From positions 54,127-118,126 of the forward strand of contig NZ_FOIA01000006.1 of assembly GCF_900111605.1 (NCBI RefSeq): a stretch of DNA of 64,000 nucleotides, read 5' to 3'. This document shows positions 23,346-36,662 of this stretch, in pieces. Position numbers and translations under genes: made by a program. Positions within the stretch are counted from its first letter, which is position 1. Every line of letters starts with the position of its first letter. The DNA is from Nitrosomonas marina. Its GTDB lineage: Bacteria; Pseudomonadota; Gammaproteobacteria; Burkholderiales; Nitrosomonadaceae. Below the pieces are notes generated by a model. The model made no database searches. It had not been told where the DNA came from and saw only the letters and a program-made list of their open reading frames with translations.

Positions 23346-24053
23346 TTACAGTAATCGATTGCCAATACGTTGCCGCAAGGCTCTGAGTTCTGCGATCTCT
23401 TCGTCGGGCAGAAAGGTGAGCCCGCCGAGTGCATGCGCTTTCCATAATATTTCCGAGGAGTGTTCGATACGTTCCATTCCCATCCATGCTTCCTCGAGTG
23501 TTTCACCCCAGCTCAGCGCACCGTGTCGCGATAAAATCAGAGCTCTGTAATGGGGCAGAAATTGTTTTAAGTTATCGCCCATGGCCTGAGTTCCGGGGCG
23601 CGCGTAAGGAACAAAGGGAATGTCGCCACAGGCCAGAATGGCCTCGCTGACAGCATGTGACGGCAAGCATGTTAAATCGGGTCGAGCAACAGACCAGGCA
23701 ATTGCAGTAGGCGGGTGTGCATGAACCACCGCTTTTGCCAGTGGGTTTTGTCTGTATACCGTCAGGTGCATTTTCTTTTCTGAAGATGGTTCTCCCTGTA
23801 TGGTCTGATTATCCAGACTGATTAACGCCATTTCTTCAGGGACCATAAACGCTTTGGAAATACCGGAAGGTGTGATGAGTATTTCATTTTCACTTACGCG
23901 GCAGGATATATTGCCGTCGGCGGCTGCAAGCATGTTTTTTTGATGCAGTCGTCGGGCGATGTTGATGATCGTTTCACTGATACGGCGGTATTGTTTTATT
24001 TCTGTAACTTCCTTCATGTCTTTTGCATCGATCACTGGTCCAGCGCACCGCAT
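23346..24053 (-). CDS. Class II aldolase/adducin family, probable Ald2-type
   Basis: A 235-residue zinc-dependent class II aldolase. Seen: the phosphate-binding AAADGNISCRVSENEILITPSG segment near residue 45, the zinc ligands in VVHAHPPTAIAWS near residue 110, and the third His in LILSRHGALSWGETLEEAW near 180. HAHPP resembles fuculose-phosphate aldolases more than MtnB dehydratases, whose motif is usually HTHS. With mtnA next door the likely reaction is cleavage of 5-deoxyribulose- or 5-methylthioribulose-1-phosphate to DHAP plus an aldehyde. The start is uncertain: an ATG twelve codons in (24015-24017, MKEVTEIKQ) would also fit family length. Alternative: methylthioribulose-1-phosphate dehydratase. 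Confidence 0.8.
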   Translation of the reverse strand: MRCAGPVIDAKDMKEVTEIKQYRRISETIINIARRLHQKNMLAAADGNISCRVSENEILITPSGISKAFMVPEEMALISLDNQTIQGEPSSEKKMHLTVYRQNPLAKAVVHAHPPTAIAWSVARPDLTCLPSHAVSEAILACGDIPFVPYARPGTQAMGDNLKQFLPHYRALILSRHGALSWGETLEEAWMGMERIEHSSEILWKAHALGGLTFLPDEEIAELRALRQRIGNRLL

Positions 24054-24169
24054 CTACAGGTGCATTGCCCTTTATTTCGGTTATCTGCATGAAAGCAGCT
24101 GAGGGTCATTGTATCAGACAAAATAACGATATTCGGTCGGCAAATTGTAAACAGCATACGGTTATACAA

Positions 24170-25258
24170 TTACTCTATGGCGGTGGCCAGATCGGTAGCA
24201 AGTTTCACCAGTATAGTTGATTGTTCCAGTTCATGAATGAAACGCCAGGGAATATTTGACAGACCAGTCTGGGCACCTGTCAGTGCGCCAGTCAGAATCG
24301 CACGCGCCTGGTTTTGTCCACCTCCGTTGATGGCATGCAGCACGGCCGATTCGAAGTCATTATGGAAGCGGGCAGCAAGGTAGTAGGCTGCTGGCAGTTG
24401 ATGATAAATAGCGCAGGGCATGCCGTAAACAATCGATACCTTCCATGCCGGTTCAATATGAATTTCAGGGTCCGCAGCCGCAGCCGCCATATAGGACGGA
24501 GTGAGCAAAGCATCGGGTGAGGCAAAGCGGCCTGCGCGGGGCGGATCGGGGTCGCCGGGTCGTGGATTCTGCAGATTATCCCGCGTTACAATATGAAAGG
24601 GCAGCTTGCCGTTTTTGACCAGTTTCAGCAGTTTGTTCGAAAGCTCTGTATCCAGTGTATGTCCCTGGATCAGTAAACTCAGCACAGCGCCGTATGCAAC
24701 GGTCATTGCTACGACGGTTTCATCGGATTGCGTGAGCAGGGTGTTCTCGGTGATGGCCGAAGCGAGTTGATCCGGCTGCAGTGCATAGCGCACGGCAATG
24801 GCAAGCGTGCGCTCTATGGCTTCAGTGGTGTCCGCATGGCTGCCGGTCTGTTCCCAGGTCAGTTTCTGTTGTATGCGTTGCCGCCAGACTTCTCGAATGG
24901 ATTGGCTGGTATATTTTCCAGGGCCGCAGACGGGTGTTCCGTCCAGCATCGGAAACAGCGTTTCATCCATACGCTGGCAGAAATCGGTCTTGTCGTAGCC
25001 ATTGCACTTAATAAGTGAACGGATCATCAGATTCAGTATAAAACCGGCCTGTGACAGCTGTCCGGCTTTCATTCCGGCATGATACCGGTCAGGTCTGGGG
25101 TCGGTATAACCGTCGATCCAGTCTCCGTAATCACGACGAAGTTCATCAAGGTTATAGTACCAGTGTGGACCAAGGGCCAATGCATCGCCGATAAAAGCGC
25201 CCATAATGGCGCCTTTGACCCGGTCCTGAAGATTTTCGTTAGGCATGGGTTGTTTCAA
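24170..25258 (-). CDS. ADP-ribosylglycohydrolase-like (J1-crystallin-type)
   Basis: A 362-residue all-helical protein of the ADP-ribosylglycohydrolase superfamily. The N-terminus has VKGAIMGAFIGDALALGPHW, the superfamily GD motif. However, the two metal-ligand motifs of active ARH enzymes are replaced: GQ-TDDT becomes AGQLSQAGF near residue 67, and the C-terminal GGDTD becomes NGGGQNQARAILTGALTGAQ near residue 315. Such replacements are a feature of the J1-crystallin-like branch, whose activity is not established. So the fold is secure, but ADP-ribose hydrolysis by the usual two-Mg mechanism looks unlikely. It ends about 117 bp from the aldolase on the same strand and may share transcription with it. 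Confidence 0.82.
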   Translation of the reverse strand: MKQPMPNENLQDRVKGAIMGAFIGDALALGPHWYYNLDELRRDYGDWIDGYTDPRPDRYHAGMKAGQLSQAGFILNLMIRSLIKCNGYDKTDFCQRMDETLFPMLDGTPVCGPGKYTSQSIREVWRQRIQQKLTWEQTGSHADTTEAIERTLAIAVRYALQPDQLASAITENTLLTQSDETVVAMTVAYGAVLSLLIQGHTLDTELSNKLLKLVKNGKLPFHIVTRDNLQNPRPGDPDPPRAGRFASPDALLTPSYMAAAAADPEIHIEPAWKVSIVYGMPCAIYHQLPAAYYLAARFHNDFESAVLHAINGGGQNQARAILTGALTGAQTGLSNIPWRFIHELEQSTILVKLATDLATAIE

Positions 25259-25500
25259 TGTATACGATATTGGGATGATGAATGAAGCGTGTCTGCTTTC
25301 CTGCGGCTGTTTGCCAAAAATTTAACTTAATCAATTTGAAACCGGTTGATATTACAGTTTATATGATTGTCTGTCACGGTTTGGGATTGTTTATAATGGA
25401 ACTTTATGAAGATTGAATGCCGCCTTGCTTGCACTGTGTTGACGACTCGGCTATGGTTTATGCACCAATGCTGGTGGCGAACAAACATAACAGGAGGTGA

Positions 25501-25569
25501 ATGATGTATGCTTTTTGCAGCGACAGAGCGAAAAAATATACATTACAGCTTCTTTGCAAAGCCGGTTAA
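25501..25569 (+). CDS. Possible 22-residue peptide with strong ribosome site
   Basis: The reading starts MMYAFCSDRAKKYTLQ and ends after KAG at a TAA. AGGAGGTGA at 25492-25500 is an almost perfect Shine-Dalgarno, four bases from the first ATG and seven from the second. It lies just upstream of the SRPBCC gene and could be a translated leader peptide. No homology is recognised; a longer frame starting at a GTG in the same spot runs out of frame over the next gene and is not favoured. Confidence 0.35.
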   Translation: MMYAFCSDRAKKYTLQLLCKAG

Positions 25570-25593
25570 TATTCCGGAATAAGGATAAATATA

Positions 25594-26094
25594 ATGTTCA
25601 ATTTAGGTTCCATGTTGAATCTGGGTTCTACGGAACCTGTCATAGGCAGCGCTTCTATCGTTGTCAGGTGCTCGTCCAACGAACTGTTTCGATACATCGG
25701 AGAAGACCTGTTCCAGAATTATCCCAAATGGTCCCCCGAGGTCAAGGAGCTTGAACAAATCACACCCGGCCCGGTACAACTGGGAACGATCGGGCGCCAG
25801 GTTCGTGTCGATCAGGGACGGCGTTCAGAATCGCGCTTTAAAATATCCGATTTTTCTGCAGGAGAACGGTTAACGTTTATCGGTGTGTCCGATCCTTATC
25901 GTTGTTCGTATGAGCTGCAGACAATCGATGCTGAAACTGCAACGAAGTTGACGTTTACATTTGAGTTGCTTGAATTGCTGGCAATTATGCGTCCATTGGA
26001 AGGACTGGTGCGAGCAACCATTAAGGATGGCGTTGGAAGAACGGTTCAGAATATCAAACGGTTGGCTGAGGCTGAGAAACTAAAATCCGGCTAA
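25594..26094 (+). CDS. SRPBCC family protein
   Basis: A 166-residue protein with a START/SRPBCC (polyketide cyclase-dehydrase-like) fold. The sequence has the expected pattern of a single helix-grip domain: SIVVRCSSNELFRYIGEDLFQNYPKWSPE, a run of strands (RSESRFKISDFSAGERLTFIG, ATKLTFTFELLE) and a long C-terminal helix (GLVRATIKDGVGRTVQNIKRL). Such proteins bind hydrophobic ligands or catalyse cyclisation; here the substrate is unknown. The start has AAGGAT eight bases upstream. An O-methyltransferase gene follows 139 bp later on the same strand, which might indicate a small-molecule tailoring pair. Confidence 0.8.
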   Translation: MFNLGSMLNLGSTEPVIGSASIVVRCSSNELFRYIGEDLFQNYPKWSPEVKELEQITPGPVQLGTIGRQVRVDQGRRSESRFKISDFSAGERLTFIGVSDPYRCSYELQTIDAETATKLTFTFELLELLAIMRPLEGLVRATIKDGVGRTVQNIKRLAEAEKLKSG

Positions 26095-26233
26095 CTAACA
26101 AACTAATTTTAAATAATTCTATCAGCGGGATAAAACGATTAGTAAATTAGCTATCGCGCTTGAATGAGATAATACATTTCATCGGTGGCAGCCCGCTAAA
26201 TTATCAGATGAACCAGTCAAAAGGAAAAGTGTG

Positions 26234-27271
26234 ATGGCACAAGATAAAATTTCCGATCTTCAAATACCCCAGGTGGATGATCGCCCGCTGTGGGATGTTA
26301 TTTTTGGAATATATGGTTATCCGGCGCTGCTTCTGGCGCATCGTCTCAAGATTTTTTCCATTCTTGCTGAAAAAGCACGTACGTTGCCTGAAATCTGTGA
26401 TGCACTTAACCTGAAACAGCGTCCTGCAGAAGCTATGCTGACAACAGCAACCGCACTGGGTTTTTTGACGCTTGAGAATGGACGTTACAGTCTGACAGCG
26501 GTTACCGAAACGTATTTGCTTGAGGACAGCCCGAATTACTTCGGTTTTTTCTGGGACATGATGATAGATAATTATCAGATCGCCTCAATTGCAGGTCTTG
26601 AAAAAGCTGTACTCACTGATGCGCCGCAGGCGTATGGCGGCGGCGATATTTTTAAAACACATGAGGAACAGATTGAATTGCTGCGCCGGTTTACAGCGGG
26701 TATGCACAGCATCAGCATCACATCAGCGCTGGTTTGGCCAACGCTGCTGGATTTTTCCAAACACCGTATTATGCTCGATATCGGCGGGGGCTCCGGAGCA
26801 CATTCGATCGGCGCGGTATTGAAGCTGCCGAATCTGAAACAGGCGTTGATACTGGATTTCTCACAGGTCTGCGAAGTGGCGGAAGAATATATTGTCCAGT
26901 TTGGCGTGCAGGATCGTGTTAAAACACATGCAGCCAACATATGGCAGGATCATTGGCCCGCTGCTGATCTTCACTTTTTCTCAAACATGTATCATGACTG
27001 GATGCCCGATAAATGCCATTTTTTAACAGCTAAAAGCTTCACAGGCCTTGAGTCCGGCGGAAGGATTGTGATTCATGAAATGCTCTATGATGATGATAAA
27101 ACCGGCCCGTTTACTGCTGCCGCCTATAGTATGGTGATGATGGGATGGACGGAAGGCAAACAGTATACTGGCCAAGAATTGACAGAAATGCTCGATAAAA
27201 TTGGTTTCCAGGATATTCATATTCATAAAGCGTTTGGCTACCATAGTATTGTTACCGGGGTTAAGCCTTAG
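26234..27271 (+). CDS. SAM-dependent O-methyltransferase
   Basis: A 345-residue methyltransferase of the plant-type O-methyltransferase family 2 (hydroxyneurosporene/acetylserotonin OMT-like). The N-terminal helical dimerisation domain (YPALLLAHRLKIFSILAE, RPAEAMLTTATALGFLTLENG) is followed by the SAM-binding motif IMLDIGGGSGAHSIGAVLK near residue 178 and the catalytic region FFSNMYHDWMPDKC with a conserved His near 255. AAGGA at 26221-26225 is eight bases from the ATG at 26234, which is preferred over a GTG three bases before. The substrate is not known; the neighbouring SRPBCC protein could act on the same compound. Confidence 0.88.
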   Translation: MAQDKISDLQIPQVDDRPLWDVIFGIYGYPALLLAHRLKIFSILAEKARTLPEICDALNLKQRPAEAMLTTATALGFLTLENGRYSLTAVTETYLLEDSPNYFGFFWDMMIDNYQIASIAGLEKAVLTDAPQAYGGGDIFKTHEEQIELLRRFTAGMHSISITSALVWPTLLDFSKHRIMLDIGGGSGAHSIGAVLKLPNLKQALILDFSQVCEVAEEYIVQFGVQDRVKTHAANIWQDHWPAADLHFFSNMYHDWMPDKCHFLTAKSFTGLESGGRIVIHEMLYDDDKTGPFTAAAYSMVMMGWTEGKQYTGQELTEMLDKIGFQDIHIHKAFGYHSIVTGVKP

Positions 27272-27369
27272 CGTACCGTATAGAGCGGGCAATATCAGAT
27301 CGTCAATATCGGATCGCCAAAAAAACAGGTGCTACTGCACCTCATCAACCAAAACAGAGGTGTTGTGAT

Positions 27370-29271
27370 TCAACAGTCTTCGAACGTAATCTTTTCGTTT
27401 TCTTTTTTATATTTTTCATCTTCTTCCAGCAGGCTTTCCGGTGGTCTGCTGTAAGCTTGTTGCAATAATTTAAATTTTTTTAAATAATATTCCAATGGCT
27501 TTTTGCACCCTTTCTTATCATATACACTGATGATTTTAGGAATAACATTCGGTGCCTGAGCGTTTCCATTGAATTTGAAAATAATTCTGTACTGTATCCT
27601 TTTCTCGACCGTGGCGCGTTTATAGTTTTCGGCAGGATTGCCTTGCTGGAATGCCGGATTGTCGCAAACGAGAAACGCGTCGAAATCTATAATCACGCAT
27701 CCGCCCCTGCCTGAAAGCCCTGGAATGAATTTACTGTCGTCGCCCCTTTCGCCAAAGAAATGACTGAAGGAAATACCCGGAGAGTCCTGCTGCACAATGG
27801 CTGGTTTGGAATTTTTTTTATTGCCGGATCGGTTGGGTGTTTTGCCGGGCCTGATGTCGGGTTTGGTCTGTGGCCGTGTATTCCGGGGATTGTTGGTGAA
27901 CCTGGGGTCGTATGCATTGCCGTTGCGGGCCAGACTTTTTTCCGAATCCAGAATGTCCAGCGTCCAGTCATGACCGAGCACCTGTTTTCTGAATTTGCCT
28001 TGTTGCTTAATCAGCGCCCGGGCCCAGGCAAATTGGATCACCGCATAGGGATGCGCGGTCTTGCAGCAGTTGCGTGGATTTTTGACAGCCCAGTAAAGCT
28101 CCAGATCAAAAATCTTATACTGCGTTCCTTCGCGTGTGTAATCTCTGGGCGTCTGTGCTATCTGTATCAAATTGCTTCCGGCATAAAAGGAAAGAGGGCC
28201 TTTGTGGGAAGAACTGCCGGATTTTTCGGCTGCGCTCCAGATTACGCTTAGCTTGTCGCTGTCTTCGCAGGGGTTCTGTGGGTCGTTGTCGGGAATAAGC
28301 TTGATAGTACCGACAAGCATTTCCTGAGCTGTTGCGGGATGTTTGGGTAACGGTTGCGGTGGCGGCACCAGAAATATCCAGCCTTCTTTCTCTATTTTTT
28401 TGATCTTTTGTTCCAGGTCTTCTTTACCTTTCGCGCTGATTTCCAATTGATCCTGTTCTTGAGCCTGCTGACCGGGCTTCTTGATATTAACGAACTTGAC
28501 GGGTGTGCCATTTCGTTGCCATTCGATGATCAGTTTTCCAGGCAACCCTTTAATGTCTCTTGCCGATATATGCATACGAAGACTGGCGCCTTTATAGAGC
28601 CTCAGTTCCGGCCTGAAATCACTGAACCGGGTTCTTAGTACGTGGACTTTGCCTTCCTTTAGAATTTCGATCTGAAAGAAAACGGTCATTTCACATTTGT
28701 TGCGTACAACCGTTCTTCCGTAATCATCGATATCGGTATATAGCATGCCATTAGCGGGCGGCAGCCAGAATGCCGAGTAGCTGGCGCTGACCAGGCCGCC
28801 GATCGGGGTGCCGGCAAGACTCTGCAAACCTGGCGTCATGTGCGTAACACCGCTCATGTTCAGCGTTATGTCTGACAGAAAACTGATTTCCGATGATGCA
28901 ACATCGACATCCTCGGGTCGCGGTTCCCATTCTGTTTCGTCCACGCGGTCAGTGTCAGTCTCCGGTGGCGGCCAGGTTTCATGAAGAATTTCGTCAGGCT
29001 CCCGCCACTCCGATTCCGCGAATGTTTCAGCTGTTGTCGGCTCGCTGAAAGCGTTTTCTGCGCCGGAAAAAATTGCCAGATCTTCGTCTTCAATGGGATG
29101 CATTGTAGCTGGCCAGTCAGTTATCTGGACACTGTTTCTGAATTCGAGCGGATTATTTGCCGACCGTAACAGTTTTCGTGCTCCGGGAGAAATGCCCAGG
29201 GGGTTCTCCAAAGAATGAGGCGTGTCGACGTCCGCTTCAGAACACTGACATTCTTCTCTTTCTTTAACCAT
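27370..29271 (-). CDS. Large hypothetical protein paired with capsid-like gene
   Basis: The function is not recognised. The 633 residues have no signal peptide or membrane helix. The N-terminus has a CQC motif and a long acidic, disordered-looking section (about 55-125) with repeated Trp-Glu/Pro motifs (SEWREPDE, ETWPPPETD, ETEWEPRPED). Two possible beta-rich regions follow (about 150-270 and 300-440), separated by a KKIEKEGWIFLVPPPQPLPK linker. A basic Asn/Pro stretch (PRNTRPQTKPDIRPGKTPNR) lies near 470, and the C-terminal domain ends in a Lys/Glu-rich helix. It starts 54 bp after the capsid-like gene, same strand, so the two are probably one operon. The Shine-Dalgarno is weak. It could be cargo, a scaffold or a structural partner. 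Confidence 0.7.
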   Translation of the reverse strand: MVKEREECQCSEADVDTPHSLENPLGISPGARKLLRSANNPLEFRNSVQITDWPATMHPIEDEDLAIFSGAENAFSEPTTAETFAESEWREPDEILHETWPPPETDTDRVDETEWEPRPEDVDVASSEISFLSDITLNMSGVTHMTPGLQSLAGTPIGGLVSASYSAFWLPPANGMLYTDIDDYGRTVVRNKCEMTVFFQIEILKEGKVHVLRTRFSDFRPELRLYKGASLRMHISARDIKGLPGKLIIEWQRNGTPVKFVNIKKPGQQAQEQDQLEISAKGKEDLEQKIKKIEKEGWIFLVPPPQPLPKHPATAQEMLVGTIKLIPDNDPQNPCEDSDKLSVIWSAAEKSGSSSHKGPLSFYAGSNLIQIAQTPRDYTREGTQYKIFDLELYWAVKNPRNCCKTAHPYAVIQFAWARALIKQQGKFRKQVLGHDWTLDILDSEKSLARNGNAYDPRFTNNPRNTRPQTKPDIRPGKTPNRSGNKKNSKPAIVQQDSPGISFSHFFGERGDDSKFIPGLSGRGGCVIIDFDAFLVCDNPAFQQGNPAENYKRATVEKRIQYRIIFKFNGNAQAPNVIPKIISVYDKKGCKKPLEYYLKKFKLLQQAYSRPPESLLEEDEKYKKENEKITFEDC

Positions 29272-29325
29272 AACGATTCACTCTTCGTGTTTACCGTGAT
29301 GCGCTGTGATCAGGCACCGACAGGA

Positions 29326-30318
29326 CTATTTGCCGCAAACCGGAATGGTGGCGTTCCTGATTACCGACAATGCGGCCGAACTGCCCAATGCAATACCAGC
29401 TGGCATCGACAAGTGGTAGACCAGCGTGGACGCATCGGCAAGAATCGTTGAACGCGTAATAATGTTTTGCGCTTTTTCCGGCTTAATACCGTGCAGGTTG
29501 CCCGGTCCCAGCGATAAAAACCAGATATTTGTTGCCAAAGGCGGCTCCATGCCATTGAGCTCAAGAACGTTCTCCGGTGATATGGCTGCGCCGACATGAT
29601 TGTGGCCGCACTCGTATACCTGATTCAAATCATTGATATACACCGGTGCGCCGTCAAATTTGAGTACATGCTCAAATTTTATTGTGCCGTCAGGACAGGT
29701 AAACTCCATTTCTTCACTGTCCGGCCTGAGTCCTCTGACATAATGGGATGCATTGATGGCGCGTTTGCCAATGCTGCTGGTAAATATGACAACGCAGCGT
29801 CCGTCATTGGCGCGAACCAGTTCTTTGGCTCTGTCCAAGTCTTCCAGTGTAAGCGGGCGTCCCTGAAGGTCTATTGTGTTGCCCGGATTAACCAGACTAA
29901 GCAATCCGTCAAATTCTTCCGGATTAGCGGAAGCATCGCCCCTTTCAAACAGTATCCAGAACTTGTATAACAGTTCCCTGACAGCAAGCGCCATCTGGAC
30001 GGCAACCTGGTCATTTGCATTGGATGAGAAAATATCCTGCGCTTTATAGCTAACGCGGAAGTGAGTGGCAATTTCGGCAAACCGGTAAACGCGATTCGGA
30101 TCGTTCGGCTGTTTGGTGTCTTCGGGGATTGGACTGTTCTGGCCAATAGCGTTGCCCGGGGTCAAAGCACCTGTCGCGGCATAACGGAGTGAATGACCTG
30201 AAACGGGAATGAACGGAAAAATGGATGAAAGCTGTATACGAAACGGAAAATCCTCGATCAGCCATTTTGCCAGTGCATCATTAGAAAGAAGCTGTGCATT
30301 AGCGCCTATAGGTTGCAT
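29326..30318 (-). CDS. HK97-fold major-capsid-like protein, outside any phage
   Basis: The 330-residue product resembles phage major capsid proteins of the HK97 fold. Seen: an N-terminal region ending in a LRYAATGALTPGNAIGQN loop, then EEFDGLLSLVNPGNTIDLQG and PLTLEDLDRAKELVRANDGR (the GL-then-TLEDLD pattern of capsid proteins), VVIFTSSIGKRAINASHYVRG, and FDGAPVYINDLN, followed by a C-terminal beta-rich region. No portal, terminase, protease, tail or integrase gene lies nearby. The ATG at 30316-30318 is chosen because GGAGGTGG lies just upstream; a longer reading has an unlikely N-terminus. Together with the 633-residue partner it could form an encapsulin-like compartment. The fold call rests on pattern recognition, not a search. 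Confidence 0.55.
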   Translation of the reverse strand: MQPIGANAQLLSNDALAKWLIEDFPFRIQLSSIFPFIPVSGHSLRYAATGALTPGNAIGQNSPIPEDTKQPNDPNRVYRFAEIATHFRVSYKAQDIFSSNANDQVAVQMALAVRELLYKFWILFERGDASANPEEFDGLLSLVNPGNTIDLQGRPLTLEDLDRAKELVRANDGRCVVIFTSSIGKRAINASHYVRGLRPDSEEMEFTCPDGTIKFEHVLKFDGAPVYINDLNQVYECGHNHVGAAISPENVLELNGMEPPLATNIWFLSLGPGNLHGIKPEKAQNIITRSTILADASTLVYHLSMPAGIALGSSAALSVIRNATIPVCGK

Positions 30319-30618
30319 AGTTCCACCTCCAGTCAACGTATCCGGCCGTCTGATATCATTCCTCAACGGCTGGCAGTGAACATAAATGCATCTACATGAA
30401 ACGTTTTTTCCTCTCTAATTGGAGGAGTGCGAAGCACGCAATTGCTATCTAACCAGTATTCGTTGCAAACTGCAAATAAATTTGCGATACAGCCTATACT
30501 GCTTATTAATATTTTTTTGTAATTTCCGGTATGACATAATGTGTCAGACAGCTGGGCAGCAATGTGTTATCAATTGTTGTGCGGAATGTAAACTACAAAA
30601 AATAACGGCTTTAAATTT

Positions 30619-31101
30619 ATGTATGCATTTAAATCTAAAATCGACAAATCGCTGGTATTCCTGCTGGTATTTTCAGTGATCGCATGCCTGATGGGCGCAT
30701 CTGTAATGCTGGAAGTCGGCGGTATGTTCAATACCATTCTGGCCGTTGTCACGCTGTTAATTGGTGCAGGTTTTCCAATGTGGATACTGGTATCTACACG
30801 ATATATCGTTAATGACGATAATCTTAAAATAACCAGCGGGCCGTTTTCATGGACTATACCGATTGATTCGATTACCTCTGTTCAGGAAACCCGCCACGCC
30901 GGTGCAAGTCCGGCATTGTCGCTGGATCGTCTGGAAATAAAATACGGTACGAATAAAGCGATTCTTGTATCGCCCGCTGATAAACAGGCGTTTCTGCAGA
31001 AACTGAACGGCGGAAAACAAGGCAAGCCGCAGAGCATCGGCAAACATTCCGGCGGTAATGTCAAAAAGAAAAAAGCAAAAAAAACCGTCAATCAGGATTA
31101 A
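30619..31101 (+). CDS. Membrane protein with bacterial PH-like domain
   Basis: A 160-residue protein with two N-terminal transmembrane helices (about 10-30 and 36-58) joined by a very short loop. A soluble domain follows whose pattern (STRYIVNDDNLKITSGPFSW, IPIDSITSVQETRHAGASPA, LDRLEIKYGTNKAILVSPAD) matches bacterial PH-like membrane proteins. The C-terminal 35 residues are Lys/Gly-rich and probably disordered. The role is unknown; such proteins are usually membrane-associated accessory factors. It is preceded by about 250 bp without a gene and followed by a DUF488 gene 69 bp later on the same strand. Confidence 0.75.
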   Translation: MYAFKSKIDKSLVFLLVFSVIACLMGASVMLEVGGMFNTILAVVTLLIGAGFPMWILVSTRYIVNDDNLKITSGPFSWTIPIDSITSVQETRHAGASPALSLDRLEIKYGTNKAILVSPADKQAFLQKLNGGKQGKPQSIGKHSGGNVKKKKAKKTVNQD

Positions 31102-31170
31102 CTGTGATGAGCGTATTTGAATTGAGGCCTGCCGTCGTTCAATGCTGTACGGTAAGCTACGATCGATTTG

Positions 31171-31527
31171 ATGACACTGACAGTCAAGCGAGTTTACGAC
31201 GAACCTGACCCGAAGGACGGCATGAGAATACTGGTCGACCGGCTTTGGCCAAGAGGGCTTTCAAAGGAAAATGCAGCCCTTGACGTCTGGCTGAAATCTG
31301 TAGCGCCGTCAACCGGGCTTCGCCGCTGGTTTCAGCATGACGCCCGGAAATGGAAGGTATTCAAGGATAAATATTTTGCCGAACTGGATGCCGGGACAGA
31401 AGCCGTTGGTGAATTGCTGGGCTATATCAATCAATCCGATGTGGTGCTTTTATATGCAGCAAAAGATCCTGAGCATAATCACGCCGTTGCATTAAAAGAA
31501 TATATAGAACTGGTTATATCGCAGTAG
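31171..31527 (+). CDS. DUF488 family protein
   Basis: A 118-residue protein of the DUF488 family, of unknown biochemical function. Seen: the family start KRVYDEPDPKDGMRILVDRLWPRG, then LDVWLKSVAPSTGLRRWFQHD, KWKVFKDKYFAEL and the final VVLLYAAKDPEHNHAVALKEY. The ATG at 31171 follows a TTG three bases before that could also serve. Its stop is about 40 bp from the trailing end of the CRISPR array, but it runs on the other strand and is not a Cas gene. Confidence 0.85.
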   Translation: MTLTVKRVYDEPDPKDGMRILVDRLWPRGLSKENAALDVWLKSVAPSTGLRRWFQHDARKWKVFKDKYFAELDAGTEAVGELLGYINQSDVVLLYAAKDPEHNHAVALKEYIELVISQ

Positions 31528-31567
31528 TGGAGTAACATTTTTTACGTAAAAATGCGTAAATTGTTTG

Positions 31568-33176
31568 GATCTTGCTTTTGCCCGGCTTTTCAGCCGGGCG
31601 CTACTAATTTTGTGATGTGTGTTTATCGGGACAAAGAGGGGTTTCAATCCTCGCCCGGCTTTTCAGCCGGGCGCTACAAAGACCTGATCCGGGAACGGTA
31701 CGAGCTGGAAGGTTTCAATCCTCGCCCGGCTTTTCAGCCGGGCGCTACCCAACTGTATCAAGGCTTTCGTGATGGTAGTACAGTTTCAATCCTCGCCCGG
31801 CTTTTCAGCCGGGCGCTACCAAGGGCGTACGTCGATTCTCTCGGTTGATACTTGTTTCAATCCTCGCCCGGCTTTTCAGCCGGGCGCTACGCCGTATGAG
31901 CCAACAATCGGCACGAGTTACGCTGTTTCAATCCTCGCCCGGCTTTTCAGCCGGGCGCTACAAGCGGCCGGTCAAATGGGTGTTACCGGCGCACAGTTTC
32001 AATCCTCGCCCGGCTTTTCAGCCGGGCGCTACCCTTGTAGCAATCGCGGCAGGTAAGCCACTGTATGTTTCAATCCTCGCCCGGCTTTTCAGCCGGGCGC
32101 TACGTTTGGGCGTGGGGTGCCACGATTCCGGCGCGAAGTTTCAATCCTCGCCCGGCTTTTCAGCCGGGCGCTACGATGGTGGAATTTCATCATAAACAAA
32201 ATATTAATGTTTCAATCCTCGCCCGGCTTTTCAGCCGGGCGCTACTTTTATCATTGGATTTCTGTTTTCTTCTATTCTAAGTTTCAATCCTCGCCCGGCT
32301 TTTCAGCCGGGCGCTACGACAGCACGCCGACATTCTGGGCGGGCACTCATGGTTTCAATCCTCGCCCGGCTTTTCAGCCGGGCGCTACTTGGTGTCACTT
32401 GCGGGGCTGGTTGTTGCTCTGCTTGTTTCAATCCTCGCCCGGCTTTTCAGCCGGGCGCTACCAATGCAAATCGAGTCCCATTCTTGTGATTATAAGTTTC
32501 AATCCTCGCCCGGCTTTTCAGCCGGGCGCTACAAAATCCAGATGTTATTTCAGAAACTTTTAAAGGTGTTTCAATCCTCGCCCGGCTTTTCAGCCGGGCG
32601 CTACTATTATGAGTGAACAAAGTCATTGGCTTGGTAGAGTTTCAATCCTCGCCCGGCTTTTCAGCCGGGCGCTACCCCGCCAATCCACCGAGGCGGTTGT
32701 CCACCGACGTGTTTCAATCCTCGCCCGGCTTTTCAGCCGGGCGCTACAGTATCCTATTACTGCGGAGTTCACCGATTTAATGTTTCAATCCTCGCCCGGC
32801 TTTTCAGCCGGGCGCTACGTATTCACGATATTGAAACAAGAGAAGATGTTAGGGTTTCAATCCTCGCCCGGCTTTTCAGCCGGGCGCTACCCATTTTTGG
32901 CATGAGAAAAAAACCCCGAAATTAGTTTCAATCCTCGCCCGGCTTTTCAGCCGGGCGCTACAAATAGCAGAACTTACTGCTGAGTTGTCTCATGCTGTTT
33001 CAATCCTCGCCCGGCTTTTCAGCCGGGCGCTACCCGGTTCTCGTGCTGAATAGTATCGTTGACAGCGGTTTCAATCCTCGCCCGGCTTTTCAGCCGGGCG
33101 CTACGAGCGCATTGCCTGCAGATTGCAGTCCACCGCCTAGTTTCAATCCTCGCCCGGCTTTTCAGCCGGGCGCTAC
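31568..33176 (-). CRISPR. CRISPR array, 37-bp type I-C repeats, 22 spacers
   Basis: There are 23 repeats of 37 bp: 22 that look identical and one degenerate (31568-31604) at the trailing end, which keeps only the last 25 bp of the plus-strand repeat. Plus-strand repeats begin GTTTCAATCC and end GCGCTAC; the transcribed sense is minus, ending GGATTGAAAC next to each spacer. In sense orientation the repeat forms a 9-bp stem (CGCCCGGCT with AGCCGGGCG) capped by GAAA, leaving an 11-nt 3' part that matches a Cas5c 5' handle. Spacers are 34-36 bp and all differ. Repeat starts (plus coordinates) run 31641, 31712, 31783 up to 33140. cas2 and the leader are on the 33176 side. Confidence 0.99.
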
Positions 33177-33355
33177 GGTACAACTATAACTCTATCATAC
33201 TAAAGTTAATTTTTATCAAATTACGCGAACTGCTGCATTTTATTCGTGGAGGAGGAACCGGATAATAAGTGGTTTTTGAAATGCTGTTGTATTTCAATAT
33301 ATTAGTATCTGCGCGAACGTGCCGGTATTTGGGTGTCGCTTTATGTCCGCGTAAT
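33177..33355 (-). promoter_or_regulatory. CRISPR leader
   Basis: The 179 bp between cas2 and the first (newest) repeat should hold the array promoter and the integration signals. The part adjoining the array is AT-rich (33180-33230), as is usual for leaders. I could not define a convincing -10/-35 pair. Confidence 0.7.
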
Positions 33356-33646
33356 TCAGGCAATGAGTGGTCCATCGAAATCAATAGATTTAACATTGCC
33401 GTATTCCTTAACATGCAAATCAACAGGTTCTGTCAATCGATATAGACGCAGACTGTCTTCTTTTTCATCAATCTCAGCCAGTAGTTGTCGTTCGAGTTCT
33501 TCGAATTGCATTAAATTGACCTTGCATTCAAAAACGGATTTCTGAACACGTTGACCGTGGCCTTCGCAGATTTTTGCTACACGCCGCAATCTGCGGCGTC
33601 CTGCGCGGGTTTCTGTTGAAACATCATAAGTAATAATAATCAGCAT
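33356..33646 (-). CDS. cas2: CRISPR-associated endonuclease Cas2
   Basis: Cas2 forms the Cas1-Cas2 integrase that inserts new spacers. The 96-residue product is a ferredoxin-fold protein starting [20 protein letters not shown] (the conserved Asp in YDVS) and containing [20 protein letters not shown] and DSLRLYRL. It follows cas1 with one base between stop and start, and is the last cas gene before the leader. Normal length for the family. Confidence 0.97.
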
Positions 33647-33647
33647 A

Positions 33648-34682
33648 TTATTTCACCAGAAATGGAATGTAACCGTCCATTTCGCCGCTTATTGTGCGAG
33701 ATAAGAAGCGTGCCTGTAACAAAGGCAAGAGCCCGTACGGAATTTTTGTATCTAGTAACGGATGTGTGATTTCTTCCTGTTTGCGTTCCTGATACGCCGT
33801 GACAGCTGTTTTTCTGGCTTTATCCTGCAGGAGAACAGCACCGCCTTCCCGTTCCTGAATATCATTTTCCGTAATTTGTCCGCGATTGATTAAAGTGAGT
33901 GCCAGTCTGTCGGCCAGAATGCTGCGAAATTCTTCCATCAAATCCAGAGCCAGCGCTGCTCTTCCGGGTCGTACACTGTGGAGAAAACCTAATTGTGGGT
34001 CAAGACCTACACTCTCTATCGCCGAACGGCAATCGTTCATGACTATCGAATACAGAAACGACAGCAGCGCATTAAAGCGATCGCGCGGCGGTCTGCGTGT
34101 TCGTCCATCCATACTGAAAAATTTCCGCTTATCGCTACGTACCAAATAGATCAGGGTTGAAAAATAAACCTTCGCAGCGTCTCCCTCAATGCCGCGTATG
34201 ATATCAAGATTAGCGGCTAGGGGAAGGTTACGGACTGAAGTAGCCAGCGATTGCGCTGCATTACCGAGCATTTTCTTGTCATCTTCATTTGTTGCCTCGC
34301 GTGCACCGCGCAATAACACCTGACGGCAGTTACGCAATTTTCCAGCAATTGCGGCTCTTGCAATTGTTAGGGTAAATGCCTCATTTGCAGCCATGCGGTG
34401 TTGTGCTTGTCTAAGCAGAATATTTCCGCTGACGCCACCTTCCAGCCGTGCTTTAAAACGCCCATTGCCATCAAGCAATACCAAGCCTATACCATCATCG
34501 GCGCAACGATGCATCAATGCCGGGGAGATCATGATGTTACCAAAGCAGACAACCGTGCCCAAATGATGCAATGGAACCTGAAGTTTTTTTACCCGTTCCA
34601 CATCAATGCGCAAAGTATTATTTTCAAGATGCACATAGGATTTTGGTGTCATGACATACAGTGTATTGAATATTTGATACAT
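33648..34682 (-). CDS. cas1: CRISPR-associated integrase Cas1 (type I-C)
   Basis: Cas1 is the catalytic subunit of the spacer-acquisition integrase. From the ATG at 34680-34682 the product has 344 residues and starts [20 protein letters not shown], matching type I-C Cas1 N-termini (LNTLYV-TP). The active-site region appears as [20 protein letters not shown], then [20 protein letters not shown], containing the conserved Glu, His and Asp. A start eight codons earlier is possible but would overlap cas4 and is unlike the family. It lies between cas4 and cas2. Confidence 0.97.
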
Positions 34683-34689
34683 GAATGAT

Positions 34690-35319
34690 TTATTGGTCCG
34701 GTTCAAATAAATTTATATGCAATTTTTGCTGGCTGTCTTTATCAGCCATAATTCGGGGCTGGCAGATTTCTTTCAGCGAGCACTCCTTGCAGCGCTCATC
34801 ATTCAGCGGCGCAGGTAATTTTTCGGAGACCAGCAATGTTCGCACAGCTTGTGCAGTTTCTTTCACCTGTTGACGCAAAACATCGTTGATCGTAACCTCG
34901 CGGCGGCGACGGGACGAGTGATGATAAATTGCGCCATGTGTCACCGGTTTGCCAGTCATTTCCTCCAGGCAAAGTGCCTGTGCTGCAAGCTGAATATCGT
35001 CATGGGTTTTTGCACGTTTCTTCCCGTGTTTGTATTCCACAGGATAAATGCGTCCATCAGGATGAAATTCCACCACATCGCATTTTCCTATCAATCCCAA
35101 TTGCTCTGACCAAACCGGCAATGCATGCTCTATACGCACACCTTCAAAAGTTTCCAATCCCGGTTCATCGACGTGTTGATGCACGGCATTGCCGCGCATG
35201 GTGTGAACATTTTCGTCGAACATCTGTTCGATATGAATCAATGCACACTGTCGCGGACAATAGCTGTAATGCTGCAGGGCTGAAAGCATGATAGGCTCAT
35301 CCGTTTCTTCGGTATTCAT
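34690..35319 (-). CDS. cas4: CRISPR-associated exonuclease Cas4
   Basis: Cas4 is an iron-sulfur, RecB-like nuclease that trims and orients prespacers and selects the PAM. The 209-residue protein has the first cysteine in YSYCPRQCALIH near residue 20, the nuclease residues in LIGKCDVVEFHPDGRIYPVEYKHG around 75-95 (Asp and Glu-Lys), and the C-terminal cysteine cluster RCKECSLKEICQPR near 178-188. Its start codon overlaps by ATGA the stop of the upstream toxin-like remnant, showing that cas4 lies in the same transcript. Confidence 0.96.
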   Translation of the reverse strand: MNTEETDEPIMLSALQHYSYCPRQCALIHIEQMFDENVHTMRGNAVHQHVDEPGLETFEGVRIEHALPVWSEQLGLIGKCDVVEFHPDGRIYPVEYKHGKKRAKTHDDIQLAAQALCLEEMTGKPVTHGAIYHHSSRRRREVTINDVLRQQVKETAQAVRTLLVSEKLPAPLNDERCKECSLKEICQPRIMADKDSQQKLHINLFEPDQ

Positions 35320-35567
35320 TGGTTGTTACCAAACAGTCGGCCGACTAACACTTCTTTCGATAGTACATGGTGCCTGCTCACATCATTCAAAATGGCAGGA
35401 AGCGTACCAATGTGTAAAGGATTATGCATCGGGATGGTCAAATGATGTTTTTCTGGAATCGTTCATTCAAGCCTGACGTGACTGCCAGTTTGCCGGGTTA
35501 TTCGATAATCGAGCCGTTCAAACGCTTTGATCATTTGATTGCCAGAAATATTTCTTGGCAGTTTCAT
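35316..35567 (-). pseudogene. HicA-like toxin remnant with in-frame stop
   Basis: Read on the minus strand from the ATG at 35565-35567, one frame gives an 84-codon HicA/YcfA-like (double-stranded-RNA-binding fold) toxin. It starts MKLPRNISGNQMIKAFERLD, passes RQTGSHVRLE, and resumes HHLTIPMHNPLHIGTLPAIL and LSKEVLVGRLFG. An in-frame TGA at 35463-35465 breaks it after codon 34. The conserved GSH motif that carries the catalytic His is present. The final TGA overlaps the cas4 ATG by ATGA. A GGAG lies upstream at long spacing. It follows a HicB-like remnant and is clearly a type II toxin-antitoxin pair embedded in the cas operon. Confidence 0.75.
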
Positions 35568-35584
35568 GCGCGAATCACTTCTCC

Positions 35585-35778
35585 TCATACGAAATCCACC
35601 TGGATTATTTGATGTGCTGCATCGTCATCGAAGTGCCGATGAACGGCATCCCGCATTCGCTGATACAGACTGGAAAGATCACCCGTTTCGGAAAGAATCG
35701 ATTCGCTTGATACACACGGCGTATAGCCCCCTTCCAGTGCTTCTTCAACCAAAAATAAATTTCATTAGCGCTTTTCAT
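35585..35778 (-). pseudogene. HicB-like antitoxin remnant with frameshift
   Basis: The minus-strand ATG at 35776-35778, three bases from the cas7 stop, opens MKSANEIYF; one base is then missing in a run of T residues near 35750-35755. The restored frame gives VEEALEGGYTPCVSSESILS, LYQRMRDAVHRHFDDD and ends QIIQVDFV at a TGA at 35585-35587. The VEEALEGGYTA and RDAVRCHFDD patterns are those of HicB-like / DUF1902 antitoxin partners of HicA. The single frameshift could in principle be a sequencing error in a homopolymer, but the toxin is also broken. The upstream gene is cas7 and the downstream gene the toxin remnant. Confidence 0.7.
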
Positions 35779-35780
35779 TG

Positions 35781-36662
35781 TCACACCTTCTTCTCAAGCG
35801 TCACACCGGATGGCAACTCATCTTCAATAACAGAAACCTGATAATCTTCAACCGAACGCGGTACGACAACACCATCTTTGCGTTTTGGCTGTATACGCTC
35901 AAAGAGACTGAAGGCTGGCGCATTGCCAAGTTCATTGTCATGCTTAAAAACATACAGGCCGCGCGTTGCCATTTCGCCCCGTGCTGCAGAACGATCATGA
36001 TCGAACATTTGTATCAGCGCTTGCCATAACAATTCCAGATCACTTTCATCAAACCCGGTTTGCTTGGCCAGAAAAGAAGAGACAAAGCCATGCGCAATAT
36101 AAAGACCATACGGTACAGTAAATTTACGGCCCATCGTGCGATTATCCCCCGATTGTTTTTCAGCCTCGGCTTCTGTGGCCACCGCCATACGGGTTATGGC
36201 ATGTTCTTGTGGAACAACGGGATCTACTGAACGTGCAAATGTCATCTGTACCGGCCCACGCACCTGACCGCAGTTGATCCCGGTAGACATGACCGCACCA
36301 AACGTGCGTACATCGTAAAAATTCCGGCACATCCACAGCCGAGCTTCTTCAACGGCATTACCACCTTTGCGTTTTTTATCGTCACCTTCAAGCAGCTCCG
36401 CTTTATTGATCCCAATATAAGCACGTTTGTTCTGATTATTGAGTACAGCTTTTTCTTTAATATAAATTTCATAGGGTGGTTGCTCACCTTTTACCAAACC
36501 TATGAAGTTGCGCACTTTCCGTTTCAAGCTAACGTCCGTCACCAATCCACGTCCTGTTTCTGCATCCACTCGCGGTAAGTTTCCTGCATCCGGATCGCCA
36601 TTGGGATTACCGTCTTTCACATCAAACAACAAAACAAAATCGTAGCGATTTTTGAGTGCCAT
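35781..36662 (-). CDS. cas7: Type I-C Cascade backbone protein Cas7 (Csd2)
   Basis: Cas7 polymerises along the crRNA spacer in the Cascade complex. The 293-residue product starts [28 protein letters not shown], the family signature, and contains [34 protein letters not shown] and [18 protein letters not shown], the RAMP-type strand-loop elements of the I-C Cas7. It ends [10 protein letters not shown]. It starts 5 bp after cas8c and is followed within three bases by the HicB-like remnant. Confidence 0.97.

Follow-up and report, generated by a model that had tools for sequence, protein, structure and literature searches.

A predicted HK97-fold shell protein of Nitrosomonas marina and a bipartite tag common to its putative cargo proteins

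Background

The Bt075 protein of Bacillus thuringiensis israelensis and the encapsulin shells are among the described systems closest to the gene considered here, which encodes a predicted HK97-fold protein of 330 amino acids (aa) at 29326..30318 (minus strand, stop included) in a 64,000-nucleotide stretch of the Nitrosomonas marina genome (assembly GCF_900111605.1, contig NZ_FOIA01000006.1, positions 54,127 to 118,126), referred to below as the window, whose numbering is used throughout. In parts of a 2023 paper (PMC10669011), Bt075 is presented as a diverged phage capsid protein that resembles encapsulin shells and is tied to the matrix of the parasporal body, with L(S/D)(I/T)NE proposed as a short motif that sorts the insecticidal Cry/Cyt proteins. 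The same parts place members of an exapted phage-capsid clade in B. thuringiensis israelensis, Planctomycetes, Nitrosomonas and Paenibacillus, and the legend of Fig. S2 sets relatives from Nitrosomonas and Planctomycetes within the Bt075 clade. For family 2 encapsulins, part of a large survey (PMC8346489) describes cargo proteins with long, mostly disordered terminal regions, some with conserved motifs, that are likely addresses; the name Nitrosomonas is absent from the main text of that survey, and in PMC6934571 it appears in the reference list only. We found no report of peptidase cargo in encapsulins, or of a fifth encapsulin family, in the open-licence PMC literature, where one paper concerns a nanocage built from a peptidase and not peptidase cargo.

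We consider it likely that the predicted HK97-fold protein (hereafter the shell protein) forms an encapsulin-like shell, which packs a tagged protein encoded downstream as its cargo. The initial annotation of the locus had described a lone HK97-capsid-like gene with no phage neighbours; to this we add the downstream partner, a paralogue, a tag carried by mostly unlike proteins, and relatives in the Planctomycetota.

Results

The open reading frame (ORF) of the shell protein was taken to start with the ATG at 30318, and not with the upstream TTG at 30366 given in a mechanical ORF list, on the basis of the homologue from Nitrosomonas sp. Nm51, which begins MQPIG. A search among 5.8 billion proteins returned 71 homologues at E <= 1e-3, and the ratio of nonsynonymous to synonymous substitution rates (dN/dS) was 0.07 against each of two relatives; because of these two results we regard the ORF as real and not as a chance one, and the gene is under purifying selection. 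The best homologue is a Nitrosomonas marina protein (97% identical), and the others with a named source come from further Nitrosomonas, from metagenome-assembled genomes of a Brocadiaceae and an Acidobacteriota member, and from Bacillus cereus (P0071, 287 aa, 35% identical). The B. cereus protein may be Bt075 or close kin; we do not tie it to pBtoxis, since a tblastn search of plasmids with it returned nothing. The AlphaFold2 (AF2) model of the shell protein and the structural matches to that model point to an HK97 capsid fold, as the initial annotation had proposed, and the three stretches named there (EEFDGLLSLV, PLTLEDLDRAKEL and FDGAPVYINDLN) are all present in the translation. The nearest structures to the predicted fold are family 2 encapsulin shells, a ranking made among the Foldseek-ranked chains that VIA-align covered and not excluding folds outside that list.

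Downstream on the same strand, after a 54-bp gap of operon-like spacing (29272..29325), lies a gene (27370..29271, minus strand) for a 633-aa protein, the putative cargo, which matched nothing in Pfam, PHROG or NCBIfam at E <= 1. A protein scan turned up four homologues of it, and the shell-then-partner order is kept in N. marina Nm22 and in Nitrosomonas sp. Nm51. The N-terminal part of the partner carries a cysteine motif, C-Q-C (residues 8-10, 29242..29250, minus strand), which resembles motifs found downstream of many related shells, followed by the two motifs of the tag, motif A (residues 25-52, 29116..29199, beginning ISPGARKLLRSANNPLEF) and motif B (residues 130-165, 28777..28884, beginning SFLSDITLNMSGVTHMTPGL), both likewise on the minus strand; in the AF2 model, residues 1-185 are nearly unstructured, with short helices, two of which fall at motif A. 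The same genome holds a second shell gene (62% identical) that is followed, after a 2-base gap, by a gene for a 417-aa protein containing HELIH; N. marina Nm22 likewise has both shells. Given this paralogue and the 633-aa partner, the gene cannot be called lone. The paralogous shell has a dN/dS of 0.11, and the partners have values of 0.23-0.28. Over window positions 27373-30318, comparison with the relative L004 gives a synonymous divergence (dS) of 0.85 for the shell and, for the same two genomes, 0.34 for the partner, a difference that may point to recombination or gene conversion inside the pair. The idea that the 633-aa protein (W633) is a phage decoration protein was dropped, there being no phage-type neighbours.

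The tag consists of motif A (LLR.A..P.EF), a linker and motif B (FYLTD..LNL.G..HMTPGL), and is N-terminal in most carriers; in L006_829 and its relative L005_838 it is internal, and motif B is repeated. Ten tagged proteins, one per type, were compared: six shell-adjacent types (the 633-aa protein of the window, L006_491, L006_829, L041_417, L008_442 and L011_504), one from a contig on which no shell was found (L066_428), and three from protein scans, their gene neighbours unseen (P0078, P0079 and P0080). The scans scored the roughly 8,000 candidates with most words in common, and close relatives (L003, L004, L005_838, L007, P0072-P0077) were excluded from the comparison. The boundary between tag and body was set by hand at 40 residues past the motif-B histidine, and for L006_829 we took residues 1-300 as body and 301-480 as tag, leaving out 481-829. 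With blastp, run without composition correction, tag regions matched each other at E <= 0.01 in 40 of 45 pairs and bodies in 2 of 45 (L006_491 with L011_504, L006_829 with L041_417), and shuffled tags, a control that covered tags only, gave a mean of 0.27 matching pairs over 30 rounds. Leave-one-out models scored each tag at 65.6-152 bits, compared with at most 9.8 bits for 200 shuffles, with a small bias favouring the tag from the use of one common alignment that included the left-out row. As judged from these sequence comparisons, the tag is common to mostly unlike bodies.

The bodies give some indication of what the putative cargos are. HExxH is present in four of the ten types, and in one of these four (L011_504) the stretch HEFGHNLGENH comes together with sub-threshold M43/reprolysin matches; P0078-P0080 and the scanned planctomycete partners had nothing above cut-off in the family libraries. 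Because no such motif was recognised in the window's own partner, we limit the notion of a peptidase cage to some of the partners, which is as far as their sequences would carry it. A candidate clan-CD-like (caspase-like) pattern in P0079, P0080 and L116, HG ... W[SA]C, is not claimed as a peptidase signature, as neither Pfam nor a PDB sequence search with P0079 supported it.

Among 85 Nitrosomonas genomes, six have the shell; in the 398 Pseudomonadota genomes sampled, with at most five candidates scored in each, it was found in N. marina's own genome only. The tag model matched 11 of the 85 Nitrosomonas genomes at E <= 0.1, and its 12 matches at E <= 1e-4 all fall within the six shell genomes, the best match elsewhere having an E-value of 0.0011. 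Three hits are not among the model rows (G004, 1.0e-13; G071, 4.8e-13; G044:C10, 5.0e-21), and the last of these is a gene for a 428-aa protein with unrelated neighbours, on a contig that yielded no shell. Of the 85 genomes, 20 have true family 2A encapsulins (L023-L034 among the loci), and none of these 20 is among the six that bear the shell; the two shell types are possibly alternative compartments in Nitrosomonas.

Shell matches were also found in 19 of 294 sampled Planctomycetota genomes, at up to seven places per genome (at most seven candidates per genome scored), and 25 loci, a subset of these matches, were fetched. Genes directly downstream of these shells often start with a cysteine motif (CPSCG, CGC, CTTCG or similar). 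We counted C.{1,2}C near the start of ORFs of at least 150 aa around 26 loci, i.e. the 25 planctomycete loci and the N. marina paralogue, of which 24 have at least 300 bases downstream; the motif occurred downstream in 13 of 24, compared with 4 upstream, 2 downstream on the reverse strand and 3 upstream on the reverse strand. A separate planctomycete tag model (A6, four rows from G085 and G323) was searched against 34 genomes, namely 17 of the 19 shell-matching ones and 17 without a match, and at E <= 1e-5 it hit 5 of 17 and 0 of 17, respectively. Six of its nine hits adjoin a shell, two lie at contig starts, and one (G323:C3) has no reported shell match. Three planctomycete genomes have tandem shell genes (L097, L098, L099); in L097 and L098, small genes of structural appearance come next, together with one for a protein whose N-terminus has a double CGC, and L097 has in addition a sub-threshold phage-tail-collar match. 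The tandem-shell loci may represent another kind of device. Inspected by eye, planctomycete shell loci frequently contain a further gene of membrane-bound or lipoprotein-like appearance (L043:3675-4229, L106:7717-8364, L103:8083-9570, L104:9063-10589), and these four include one sub-threshold MORN match, one transglutaminase match and one gene with leucine-rich-repeat matches.

The surroundings of the shell gene are cellular. Ten neighbour genes (23346-36662) scanned with Pfam gave Aldolase_II, ADP-ribosylglycohydrolase, polyketide-cyclase-like, O-methyltransferase, bacterial PH, DUF488, Cas2, Cas1, Cas4 and Cas7 matches, with no portal, terminase, tail or integrase gene among them, which bears out the initial annotation on the absence of phage neighbours. 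Of five flanking genes scanned against PHROGs, that for the ADP-ribosylglycohydrolase alone matched. Phage_portal and Terminase_6N, the only portal, terminase or integrase families searched genome-wide, had no match at E <= 1e-3 in the genome, and they matched 4 and 6 of 14 control genomes, respectively. In IMG/VR, 17 stretches matched the search pattern and none was confirmed as a shell relative. As far as these searches reach, the shell is not part of a phage or prophage. The locus adjoins a CRISPR-like (clustered regularly interspaced short palindromic repeats) repeat array, followed by Cas2, Cas1, Cas4 and Cas7 (31552-36662, minus strand); beyond DUF488 in the N. marina relative L003 there are instead ORFs resembling different cellular genes.

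The sequence kinship of the shell, on the other hand, leads to phage capsids. Among PHROGs it matched major head protein phrog_212 (E 1.9e-14, residues 8-324), a membership by sequence that signifies homology and not phage function. Pfam gave only SU10_MCP, below threshold (21 vs 24.1 bits), and NCBIfam gave, again below threshold, a capsid family (27.1 vs 75 bits) and the family 2A encapsulin (14.5 vs 380 bits). Using tblastn, we found matches in 104 of 50,697 phage records, all below 60% identity and with the top rows at about 27%, and in 885 of 72,556 plasmid records, led by annotated major capsid proteins (top 28.6%); among the rows listed, phage and plasmid relatives are 24-29% identical to the shell. 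Several of those fetched adjoin annotated portal, scaffold or head-tail genes, and three plasmid-borne relatives adjoin a DUF6651 gene. In hhalign comparisons, the Nitrosomonas shells aligned to planctomycete shells at 2.5e-66, to phages at 8.5e-26 and to Nitrosomonas family 2A at 0.019, the value for phages against family 2A being 1.8e-6. A PDB profile search with the shell alignment A1 returned weak phage-capsid matches only (best E 0.0063), with no encapsulin among them, and a tree of 53 rows with long branches set family 2A far from the shell. On account of the profile comparison and the tree we do not assign the shell to family 2, even though that family comes closest to it in predicted shape; and as the deep branches are long and their joins perhaps false, we claim no order of origin among the phage, tandem-shell and Nitrosomonas clades.

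Shell sequences vary in further respects. Two cysteines near the predicted E-loop (residues 61 and 90 in window numbering) co-vary across shells, both being present in 22 of 43 shell rows and a single one in 1 of 43; in alignment A1 (regions 57-66 and 88-92) the corresponding counts are 20 and 5 of 54. This pair, neither member of which is present in the window shell, is a candidate disulfide or metal site. Two homologues, P0047 (569 aa) and P0053 (508 aa), have about 213 and 164 extra C-terminal residues, perhaps a cargo or display fused to the shell. Two relatives look broken (L116 (G361), L012): one has internal stops, and what is left of the other, in a cyanobacterial assembly, is a C-terminal fragment.

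Discussion

The most likely mechanism for this locus is an encapsulin-like compartment that loads tagged cargo. The 330-residue protein would assemble into the shell, and the downstream 633-aa protein would be packed inside, with the tag acting as the address that docks it on the inner face, in parallel with the N-terminal regions proposed for family 2 cargo. One shell might be shared by several cargos, and where the body has HExxH the cage would keep a zinc peptidase apart from the cytoplasm. The encapsulin-like role is drawn from the cellular context and the tagged partners, and to that extent the encapsulin idea of the initial annotation stands; the shell does not score as family 2A, and its sequence lies nearer to phage capsids than to that family.

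A number of observations weigh against the proposed compartment, and all steps inside the shell, assembly and loading included, are ones that we infer. In profile comparisons the shell aligns better with phage capsids (8.5e-26) than with family 2A encapsulins (0.019), and a BFVD structure search gave viral capsid matches (best 2.5e-15). The AF2 model of the 633-aa partner is poor, its predicted local distance difference test (pLDDT) score of 38.6 being too low for a structure search, and no enzymatic domain was recognised in this protein by Pfam, PHROG or NCBIfam. Six of the ten tagged types are without HExxH, which in such proteins is a motif and not an activity. The co-occurrence of shell and tag is mostly linkage, as most tagged genes adjoin shells and several are model rows, and the contig of G044 counts as one with no shell found and not as one with no shell, as this is a draft of about 200 contigs in which two shell pieces are cut by contig ends. 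As for the cysteine motif, the paralogue's partner does not have it at its N-terminus, and with a 60-aa limit the downstream excess is weaker (18 of 24 vs 8, 8 and 10), some of the hits (L111) seeming spurious.

The kinship with phage major head proteins, the nearest named homologues of the shell (phrog_212 and 104 of 50,697 phage records), would also be expected of a capsid gene left by a decayed prophage and kept by chance or for an unrelated purpose. We judge this to be very improbable, given the shell's dN/dS of 0.07, the two divergent copies in one genome with a tagged partner beside each, the genome's having no Phage_portal or Terminase_6N match, the retention of shell and tagged genes in 6 of 85 members of the genus, and the several copies in some planctomycete genomes. 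The protein might instead build an open lattice or matrix, a sheet or net on which tagged proteins are arranged; such a role has been proposed for its relative Bt075. That precedent notwithstanding, a lattice seems unlikely to us: family 2 encapsulin shells are the structures to which the predicted fold comes closest, none of the ten neighbours scanned was recognisable as a matrix gene, and the toxin-sorting motif L(S/D)(I/T)NE is absent from the compared regions of the ten tagged proteins.

The tag could, furthermore, dock its carriers on something else, such as a chaperone, a membrane or an export system, with shell and partner merely co-regulated. Its length and bipartite build (about 100-150 residues with the linker), which set it apart from family 1 with its short C-terminal peptides, speak for this option, as do the membrane-bound- or lipoprotein-like genes seen by eye near several planctomycete shells. 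Strong tag hits are, however, confined to shell-bearing genomes among the 85 of Nitrosomonas, and family 2 cargo offers a parallel in its terminal regions, described in the survey (PMC8346489) as long and mostly disordered, so that we hold this option to be quite unlikely.

Beyond the encapsulin-like compartment at this one locus, we tentatively put forward a broader picture, which as a whole seems to us possible rather than probable: an additional line of encapsulins that arose, independently of the named families, by domestication of a tailed-phage capsid, with several shell types per cell (two here, up to seven in some Planctomycetota), each having its own N-terminal tag and swappable cargo, many of the cargos being caged peptidases held until needed, and the whole spread between nitrogen-cycling bacteria. 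If true, this would mean a new encapsulin lineage and a class of peptidase cargo of which we found no report in the literature searched, a natural bipartite tag on many different proteins that is directly usable to load foreign ones, and a testable function for a loosely described clade of exapted capsids; it would also raise the question of why a cell should maintain several cages of capsid origin at once. As a search handle, moreover, the tag allows its carriers to be proposed as cargo even if they are encoded far from a shell gene.

Compared with known systems, the predicted shell has the HK97 fold in common with family 1 encapsulins; its model shows no long N-terminal helix such as theirs and a lower Z, and the long, bipartite tag described here is unlike their short C-terminal cargo peptide. 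Families 3 and 4 were compared through the NCBIfam scan alone, which listed neither for the shell. For family 2A (NF041162), the shell stays below the curated cut-off (14.5 vs 380 bits), and where family 2A has cysteine desulfurase cargo, the window partner has no Pfam or NCBIfam match and the ten neighbours are of other types; more widely, none of the cargo types of families 2A and 2B (SrpI, MmpI; cysteine desulfurase, terpene cyclase and others) was recognised here, and family 2B shells have an inserted cyclic nucleotide monophosphate (cNMP)-binding domain, whereas the 330-aa window shell has no Pfam cNMP match. The short sorting motif proposed in the Bt075 system, L(S/D)(I/T)NE, is absent here from the compared regions of the ten tagged proteins, and the main text of the Bt075 paper (PMC10669011) mentions neither protease nor peptidase. 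Phages of the PHROG 212 kind (Pseudomonas PAKlein3/Ab18, Epa; Rhizobium B1VFA) have major capsid proteins homologous to the shell, which was probably taken from a tailed phage with such a capsid gene; their genes sit in phage records or phage-like plasmids, whereas that of the window sits among cellular genes.
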